Below, piece after piece: positions 42,325 through 44,420 of a stretch of DNA of 64,000 nucleotides. Made by a program: the position numbers and the translations under genes. How positions within the stretch are numbered: the first letter of the stretch is position 1; every line of letters begins with the position of its first letter. The notes under the pieces are model-generated. The model was not told where the DNA came from and made no database searches. It was given only the letters and a program-made list of their open reading frames with translations. The stretch is from Coprinellus micaceus (taxonomy: Eukaryota; Basidiomycota; Agaricomycetes; Agaricales; Psathyrellaceae): positions 3,038,001 to 3,102,000 of the forward strand of contig OX596338.1 of NCBI GenBank assembly GCA_951394405.1, read 5' to 3'.

Positions 42325-44420
42325 CTACCAATGACCGGAAGCCTTGTGAGCAGTATGCCTAGGTCCCCATGTGAGGATTTCGACCCCAGTCTCCGTTACC
42401 CTAACATCATCGAGTCAGCGACAATCTCAGGAGAGAGGGAAATAACGCACAAAAGGGTGTCTTCGAACTGGGCACTCCTCCTTCCATCGACGGTAGTCGC
42501 GGTCCAGCCATCGGGCCAATGGACGTCTCCCCAATTGGGACCCAAGTTAATCATCTAGATAATGGGTATGAGCGCCGAAACTTCTATGGTATGTTCTCAA
42601 GTTGATTTCCACTCACCGGCTCAATGGTAAATACCTGTTATATGGGGGTTGAAACCGTTAGTTCTCTCATCCACACACTCGGCTACGAAATTAACGGGAG
42701 ATTCACCTGACCAGCCTTCATGGAACCCGGAGTCTTATTCTTGGCGTAGTGGGGGATGTTGGGAGCGGTGTGGAAGAGGTCATTAACCCCATGCCCAGTG
42801 TACGTTCGCACGACTGAACAATCAGCCGCTTTGGCAATAGGTTCACTGGAAGGGTCAGGAACATGAGGCGTAAGTTATATAAGTTATGTGTGATTGATCG
42901 ACGGGCGTTTCATCTTTGGAACCGCTTTTGGGGACGGGAAACTTACATGGCCTTTCCGAGATCCCTGAACAAAGCACCGGGCTTGCATATTTTGATAGCG
43001 GCGTCCAGGCACTCTTGTGTAACGCGGATAAGTTTGGCGGACTCGTCATCGATCTTTCCCACAGGATAGGTCTCGTTCAGGTCGGCGTGGAATCCTGAAC
43101 AGGAAGAAGTGAAGAAGAAAAAGGACACGGTTAAGACGGAGTGGCCTTCGAGACTTGACCTGGAATGGGCGTACCGTCGTAATACAGACTGACATCTAGG
43201 GACTAGGTTAGGTATGATGTCAACGGCGCCTGAAAGGTATAACCACGAACCAATGTTAATGATGTCGCCCTCTTTGAGCGGGCGCTTGTCCGGTATACCA
43301 TGGCAGATGACCTCGTTGATGGACCTAACATCGTCGTAGAAGGAAGCGTGTATACGATTGAGAATGTAGGCGGTGGAGCAACCAAAACGGCGACTAACGT
43401 GCAAACTGATTTGGGAAAGTTCCGGTAGTTCAAGGGCGAGGGGTACGCGTTACGTTCGATGGTCGCGTTGTGGACGATCTCGTCAATCTCGTCGGTCGTA
43501 ATACCAGGGCGAACCGCAGCAGCGGCGAGATCCAACACCTCTCGACCCAGCTAAAGAAAAATAATGCCAAATGGTTGGGTGTGTTAGTTAGTTGGACGAG
43601 ATCCCGTCCATTCCGGGGGTGGAGATAGGACATTTAGCGTGTATTTACGCACCTTGCAAGCATGCCTCATCTTCTCTTGCTCCTCCAACGACAAGATCCG
43701 TCCAGGCTGACCCCCCGCTTTGATTTCAGACAGTGGTTTGCCTGCAGTAGCGCCGCCACAAGCGTTAATTTTTGGCGTTTTGTTCGGTCGCGAGAACGAG
43801 GAAAAGGAAAAGGATCTTACCCGTCTTGTGGTAGTCTGGGAGGGGGATGTGGTCTGGAATCCGCCGCCTAGGCGAGAGTGGGTACCATGGGTGCAGCGAG
43901 CCGGTAAATTGGTTGTTGGGGAAGGGGTTGTACACGCCCTCTGTGTGGAATAAATCGAGATCGCAATGCTTCAGTGAATGTTTCGGGGAGTAGATGGGGC
44001 GTTGGGTGCGCACCGGGAAGGACGGATAGTGCTGCGCCGCCGGACTTGGCGAGGTCGTGAATGATTTTGTGCGTTTTCTGTGAGGAAGCATCGGGAATTC
44101 CGGTTATTCAATAGCTCAAGGTAACATGTCGCGTATTTCGCGCACCCCTGCGTGTTAGAGATCAGCTAGGCGTTTGGTTTCATCGCCGATAGAGAGACGT
44201 ACATCCGGCTTTGAAGCATGCCTGCCCACAGAAGAACGAGCCCCGTATTCCGAGCCTACGGGCTGTAATCAGCGGCTAGCGCCAGCCCGACGCACTTGGG
44301 GTCGACGTACTTGTTACAGGTAGGACATTCTAGCTTTGACGGGGGATTGCCGTTGAGGCACGACGAGCTCTGGCAGAGAACGACCTTGGTGTCGTCGGTG
44401 GTGGCGACTGCGGAGGACAT
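42325..44420 (-). CDS. MAP1: Methionine aminopeptidase 1 with N-terminal zinc finger
   Basis: The first exon (44311-44420) starts [20 protein letters not shown] and supplies a ribosome-associated Cys finger: CQSSSCLN ... ECPTCNK, then [16 protein letters not shown]. The next exons are 44203-44255, a 2-nt exon 44146-44147, 44014-44077 and 43821-43940. [20 protein letters not shown] and the catalytic domain follow. Metal ligands are visible: both Asp in [16 protein letters not shown], His in TGHGVND, Glu in FTIEPM and Glu in QFEDTLL. The protein ends [14 protein letters not shown]. The enzyme removes initiator Met co-translationally in the cytosol. The 2-nt exon is the outstanding oddity: it supplies two bases of the Trp codon before KTHK and restores frame (110+53+2 nt = 55 codons). 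Confidence 0.95.
44146..44147 (-). other. 2-nt internal microexon (GG) of MetAP1
   Basis: Minus strand: intron A (44148-44202) runs GTACGT...CTAACACGCAG. Then GG. Then intron B (44078-44145) runs GTGCGC...CTTCCTCACAG. The bordering exons supply T (before) and AAA ACG CAC AAA (after), giving TGG AAA ACG CAC = WKTH. Both introns have good ends and plausible branch sites. Confidence 0.72.

Follow-up and report, generated by a model that had tools for sequence, protein, structure and literature searches.

Internal exons of only a few nucleotides have been described in fungi, plants and animals. CYP621A of Fusarium contains a 1-nt exon, said by its authors to be the first for any fungal gene (PMC12940212), whilst extracts of other reports describe 3-nt exons in lipS of Dactylellina haptotyla (PMC5639578) and a functional microexon in Xlr2 of Trichoderma, the authors of the latter stating there that such exons were previously undescribed in filamentous fungi (PMC11121469). 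For land plants, 1-nt exons in APC11 and VPS55 are documented in extracts of two reports (PMC4674806, PMC8831610), the first of which proposes intron definition and recursive splicing for APC11 of Arabidopsis (PMC4674806). Exons of 2–5 bp in Arabidopsis, Drosophila and human are attributed to Volfovsky et al. (2003), as cited in PMC12940212. Within the literature searched, outside which most subscription journals lie, we found neither a 2-nt fungal exon nor a METAP1 microexon: as far as the extracts go, '2 nt exon' matched HLA-F (PMC7725694), 'methionine aminopeptidase' together with 'microexon' matched a cancer review (PMC11897510), and two further sources treat short exons or microexon mapping in general terms only (PMC11590231, PMC3990503). 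Here we describe a methionine aminopeptidase 1 (METAP1) gene in which a predicted exon of 2 nt supplies two bases of a zinc-finger tryptophan codon.

Results

The window (the whole stretch of DNA that was analysed, 64,000 nt) contains a complete METAP1 gene on its minus strand, running from 44420 to 42325 and comprising 14 exons that encode 389 aa. Its product carries a zf-C6H2 zinc finger and, after it, a Peptidase_M24 domain, both scoring well above the Pfam cut-off (65.0 and 175.9 bits, respectively), and the solved human and yeast METAP1 proteins align to it over nearly the whole of their own length. The closest protein among the matches listed was METAP1 of Coprinellus micaceus (Psathyrellaceae, Agaricales), at 94 % identity, which makes Coprinellus or a near relation the probable source of the genome. 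Exon 1, as read from the sequence, bears the start codon (44311–44420, minus strand; 110 nt), exon 2 encodes part of the zinc finger (44203–44255, minus strand; 53 nt), and exons 5–14 with their introns cover the catalytic M24 domain and finish with the stop codon (42325–43940, minus strand). All 13 introns are GT-AG and measure 50–102 nt each. Exon 9 (21 nt, 43195–43175) and exon 12 (18 nt, 42634–42617), both on the minus strand, are microexons by the usual 51-nt limit. A second METAP1 copy was sought and rejected, as searching the genome with the protein turned up nothing elsewhere but weaker matches, none of them over the zinc finger. These lie at G000:C4:3731861-3732523 (37–53 % identity per match), a more distant second M24 aminopeptidase gene that is possibly a mitochondrial-type MetAP. 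Four open frames in the neighbourhood of METAP1 gave no Pfam match at an E-value of 0.001.

Exon 2 terminates in ...TTC AAA GCC GGA T, the last T being the first base of the Trp-55 codon (phase 1), and exon 4 (44014–44077, minus strand; 64 nt) opens at 44077 in phase 0 with AAA ACG CAC AAA, starting with Lys-56; as such, two bases are missing between them. The 125 nt that separate these exons contain AG|GG|GT (44149–44144), which divides them, on the minus strand, into intron A (44202–44148; GTACGT...TCTAACACGCAG, 55 nt, ending in CGCAG and containing the branch-like motifs CTGAT and CTAAC), the dinucleotide GG (44147–44146) and intron B (44145–44078; GTGCGC...CTTCCTCACAG, 68 nt, ending in CACAG). 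Read as exon 3, the GG provides bases 2 and 3 of the Trp-55 codon in the N-terminal zinc finger, giving CFKAGWKTHK, and the frame sum of 110+53+2 nt equals 165 nt, or 55 codons. The exon phases, the two abutting GT-AG introns with only GG between them and this arithmetic had all been proposed in the earlier note, and each was found again directly in the sequence. At 2 nt, and flanked on either side by canonical splice sites, the predicted exon 3 fits the class of ultra-short internal microexons (at most 15 nt), and it is required both for the reading frame and for the conserved motif. A single 125-nt intron in its place would exceed every other METAP1 intron in length. Intron 4 (44013–43941) has the same donor, GTGCGC, as intron B. 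A search for the branch motif yTrAy found none in intron B and likewise none in introns 4, 7 and 12 of the gene.

Three related arrangements were considered for the 125 nt and rejected. A stwintron does not fit, as the GTGCGC donor of intron B and the CGCAG acceptor of intron A are both contiguous, neither being interrupted, and a zero-nt recursive splice site does not fit, as two bases stand between AG and GT. The third, an origin as an introner or recent repeat, found no match, the 125 nt matching only themselves in the 50.3-Mb genome in a search that ignores simple repeats and very common words.

In order to compare possible splicings, we enumerated the combinations of up to two introns, each 40 nt or longer, within 44255–44014 (the unspliced case included), and scored the resulting proteins with a profile built from the N-terminal 100 residues of 29 transcript-like relatives (defined below). 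With GT-AG sites only, six open in-frame proteins were obtained, every one of them from two introns, and the 2-nt exon ranked first at 164.9 bits, ahead of a runner-up at 145.0 bits; it remained first of 34 when GC donors were admitted and first of 720 with AT/AC ends. Amongst the GT-AG splicings enumerated, it alone kept CFKAGWKTHK. An alternative acceptor, CTAG ending at 44166, lies 20 nt from the GT at 44145 and would give an exon of in-frame length; when read by hand it contains a stop, it does not occur amongst the open proteins enumerated, and it was rejected.

To extend the comparison to other species we collected the best 120 matches of each of three protein searches, yielding 162 different METAP1 proteins. 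One of these METAP1 proteins, P0003 (eukprot, 567 aa), has a catalytic stretch in duplicate, perhaps an assembly artefact; it has the Trp and was left out. The remaining 161 were split into 129 with NCBI names (hereafter annotated) and 32 from jgi or lgn only, on contigs of about 1–16 kb, which we call transcript-like, a label assigned from source and contig size. Given that the gene in the window has 13 introns and that 10 of the 13 junction rows were free of indels in 29 transcript-like proteins (the three variable rows having indels in one, three and four of the 29), this set was taken to be transcript-derived. The motif CFKxxWxxHK was present in all 32 transcript-like proteins and in 46 of the 129 annotated proteins (Fisher P = 1.3e-12, a guide only, as the sequences are related). 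Indels, counted in the 119 annotated and 29 transcript-like proteins assembled before the third search, fell within about three residues of the 2-nt exon junction in 57 of 119 and 0 of 29, respectively, whilst the other 11 junctions had indels in 1–14 of the 119 annotated proteins; those of exons 9 and 12 had them in only 2–10. The highest of these values belongs to the exon 4/5 junction at intron 4 (14 of 119 annotated, 3 of 29 transcript-like), a naturally variable linker. The suggestion that MetAP1 zinc fingers have a Trp at exactly this place was upheld for human METAP1 (CFKGSWATHK, chain 9fq0_E) and failed as a general rule, since yeast Map1 carries Tyr (CYENNYKAHK, 8bqd_x). Relatives' DNA was sought with the pattern FCGQ[EDA]CFK in viral_contigs and genome_contigs, giving no match.

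The 83 annotated proteins that lack the motif were examined for the form of their error. In 49, Cys replaces Trp and is followed by foreign residues. Glu or Lys stands second in 33 of these (matching a translated T|GTGAG or T|GTAAG), a residue with a T-initial codon stands third in 34, and 25 show both, which is the outcome if T|GTGAGT or T|GTAAGT is translated. Gln directly ahead of K-x-H-K, as CAG|AAR would give, occurs in 19 of the 83, and by hand count 11 combine the Cys and Gln footprints. Tyr stands at the site in six, three of which (P0111, P0148 and P0156) read YG[ST][YF]NPF, as would follow from a direct splice of exon 2 to exon 5. A plain Cys for Trp with length unchanged was seen in five (P0002, P0015, P0056, P0078 and P0149), for which no explaining splicing was found by hand, and the anchor motif is absent from six that are truncated or scrambled in a manner not specific to the junction (P0011, P0144, P0150, P0151, P0153 and P0162); other types of error account for 12. 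Five proteins retain Trp and are faulty thereafter, including P0014 of Cyclocybe aegerita and P0155 of Rhizoctonia solani, which read W-V-S, as TGG|GTGAGT at the donor of B would give. A second R. solani entry, P0137, has an intact motif. Taken together, these two entries suggest that R. solani may lack intron A, its TGG then being uninterrupted, in which case intron B could predate intron A.

Closely similar proteins were in some cases split at this very site. P0055 (lgn) and P0070, the latter annotated in Tricholoma matsutake, share 99.7 % identity across 369 aligned positions and read GWKAHK and GCECLKAHK, respectively, at the junction; Armillaria gallica P0009, which keeps the motif, and A. 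fumosa P0111, which has lost it, are 97.2 % identical, and similar pairs occur in Irpex (90.0 %), Lentinula (90.9 %), Suillus (88.2 %) and Trametes (87.3 %). From such pairs it appears likely that at least some annotated entries with an intact motif are better gene models rather than genes that lack the 2-nt exon. With orders assigned by looking up one or two species each, Cys-plus entries were found in Agaricales, Boletales, Russulales, Polyporales, Hysterangiales, Cantharellales and Gloeophyllales, the footprint of Gloeophyllum (Gloeophyllales) not being donor-like; the motif is kept in Exidia glandulosa P0160 (Auriculariales). Footprints of both introns are thus seen in the proteins of many relatives, whose splice sites are read from protein sequence alone, and the 2-nt exon is likely to be common to several Agaricomycete orders.

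Introns A and B are likely to be recognized by intron definition and to leave successively, since two spliceosomes would hardly fit on splice sites 2 nt apart; the two-step scheme follows that proposed for APC11 in the extract cited above (PMC4674806). Intron A would probably leave first, being transcribed first and having the stronger donor (7.4 bits in a leave-one-out matrix of 12 introns, against 3.7 bits for intron B, the second weakest of the 13). Removal of A would also turn positions −3 to −1 of the donor of B from GGG to TGG, raising its score with the 12-intron matrix from 3.7 to 4.7 bits. The earlier idea that A is removed before B, creating a fuller donor context for the latter, is thus only weakly suggested, and an order cannot be assumed, because in a potato 9-nt exon cited by the APC11 authors the second intron leaves first (PMC4674806, extract).

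All four modelled failures of splicing stop early. Skipping of exon 3 creates T|AAA, a stop after residue 54; retention of intron A, or of both introns, leads to a stop after residue 61, and retention of intron B to one after residue 64. Only the fully spliced form would therefore make the enzyme, and the failure products are likely to be targets of nonsense-mediated decay. Lys is the next residue in 30 of the 32 transcript-like relatives, where T|AAR would be a stop too. Such stops, here and in those 30 relatives, would also suit a regulated on-off switch, in which the exon is real and its skipping tunes the level of METAP1; yet the loss of any 2-nt exon disrupts the frame, and the stop may therefore be no more than a by-product, so that we consider regulation of this kind improbable.

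A second alternative to a constitutive 2-nt exon is one 125-nt intron with both ends shifted by one base (TACGT...CACA), exon 2 then ending in ...GGATG and exon 4 beginning with GAAAACG. The joined sequence would read TGG AAA, so that protein and mRNA would be identical to those of the 2-nt exon; transcript evidence would be fitted equally, and aligners may well place reads in this way. For the same reason a cDNA reading ...GGAT-GG-AAAACG, put forward in the earlier note as proof of the exon, would not be decisive, because the donor G and acceptor G flanking such an intron spell GG as well. TA-CA ends are, to our knowledge, used by neither known spliceosome, which counts against this intron. 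It would, furthermore, leave AGGGGT in the 125 nt to chance: in 20 000 shuffles, with the first and last six bases fixed and the remainder redrawn from its own dinucleotides, AGGGGT arose anywhere in 0.16 %, and placed so that both introns were at least 45 nt in only 0.04 % (1.6 % for any AGNNGT so placed). The W-V-S of C. aegerita P0014 likewise suggests GG directly before GTGAGT. As such, we regard the TA-CA intron as very unlikely, and the 2-nt exon as the better account of the same message.

There is next to no probability left for a single GC-AG intron (44209–44078) that joins CFK to KTHK and drops Ala-Gly-Trp: it is open and in frame at 145.9 bits, but this is 19 bits under the 2-nt exon model, and it loses the Trp found in all 32 transcript-like relatives. 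An assembly or sequencing error that shifted the frame of a flanking exon around one ordinary intron can be dismissed as readily, for although a 2-base error would imitate the phase mismatch, the exons flanking the junction align to human METAP1 without indels in its vicinity and the same junction fails in 83 of 129 annotated relatives, many with footprints of the same splice sites.

Discussion

The gene model, the enumeration of splicings and the proteins of relatives together lend good support to the earlier claim of a 2-nt internal coding exon in METAP1. With high confidence, we favour as the best explanation as a whole a predicted 2-nt exon that is likely common to several Agaricomycete orders, whose flanking introns are likely handled by intron definition and removed sequentially, probably with intron A first, and for which the modelled failures lead to an early stop. 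As 83 of 129 related annotated proteins are without the expected residues at this site, the exon is likely to be old, common to many mushrooms and routinely missed. A bolder version, in which the exon is ancestral to most Agaricomycetes (from Agaricales to Cantharellales), has been retained, is mostly misannotated and acts as an all-or-nothing checkpoint, is one towards which we lean only slightly.

If correct, exon 3 would rank among the smallest fungal exons known and, in contrast to the Fusarium exon, would belong to a housekeeping gene and have left traces across several orders. It would offer a natural test of the shortest exon that intron-definition splicing handles, and of how long such an arrangement survives. 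The results also suggest that METAP1 is misannotated in a systematic way in Agaricomycetes (83 of the 129 annotated proteins in our set), and point to a cheap search for exons of this kind, namely for conserved residues that transcript-derived proteins share but that are disrupted in genome annotations.

Ultra-short exons as such are already known, and the earlier view that 2 nt lies near the physical limit for exon definition needs correcting, in that exons can be shorter still, given the 1-nt exons on record (PMC4674806 and PMC8831610, in extract; PMC12940212). Stwintrons, as described in extracts of three reports (PMC9024468, PMC6616335, PMC5639578), resemble introns A and B in being two abutting fungal introns that are likely removed sequentially; in stwintrons, however, a splice element of one intron is interrupted by its partner, whereas in METAP1 both sets of sites are intact and two coding bases remain. 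Of the fungal microexons, that of Xlr2 is a regulated exon of a transcription factor (PMC11121469, extract), and those of lipS, mentioned in passing in the extract, share with METAP1 a very small internal size but are 3 nt long, frame-neutral and from Ascomycota (PMC5639578). The exons of Volfovsky et al. (2003), as cited, fall into the same size class as METAP1 exon 3 but are not fungal. The plant exons of APC11 and VPS55 are similar in residing in conserved genes, in their deep conservation and in their absence from reference annotations; according to the extracts, they differ in being 1 nt long and in having been demonstrated by RNA-seq and RT-PCR. Fusarium CYP621A also contains an ultra-short exon of the AG|G|GT type within an over-long intron, which completes a codon of a conserved motif and was found through a phase mismatch, nearly all database models being wrong at that point (PMC12940212). 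In that case the exon is 1 nt, belongs to a P450 of one genus and has SRA reads in its support (PMC12940212), whereas the predicted METAP1 exon lies in the zinc finger of a housekeeping enzyme and has left signs in several orders. Its notable features are the housekeeping gene, the likely breadth and the frequent misannotation.
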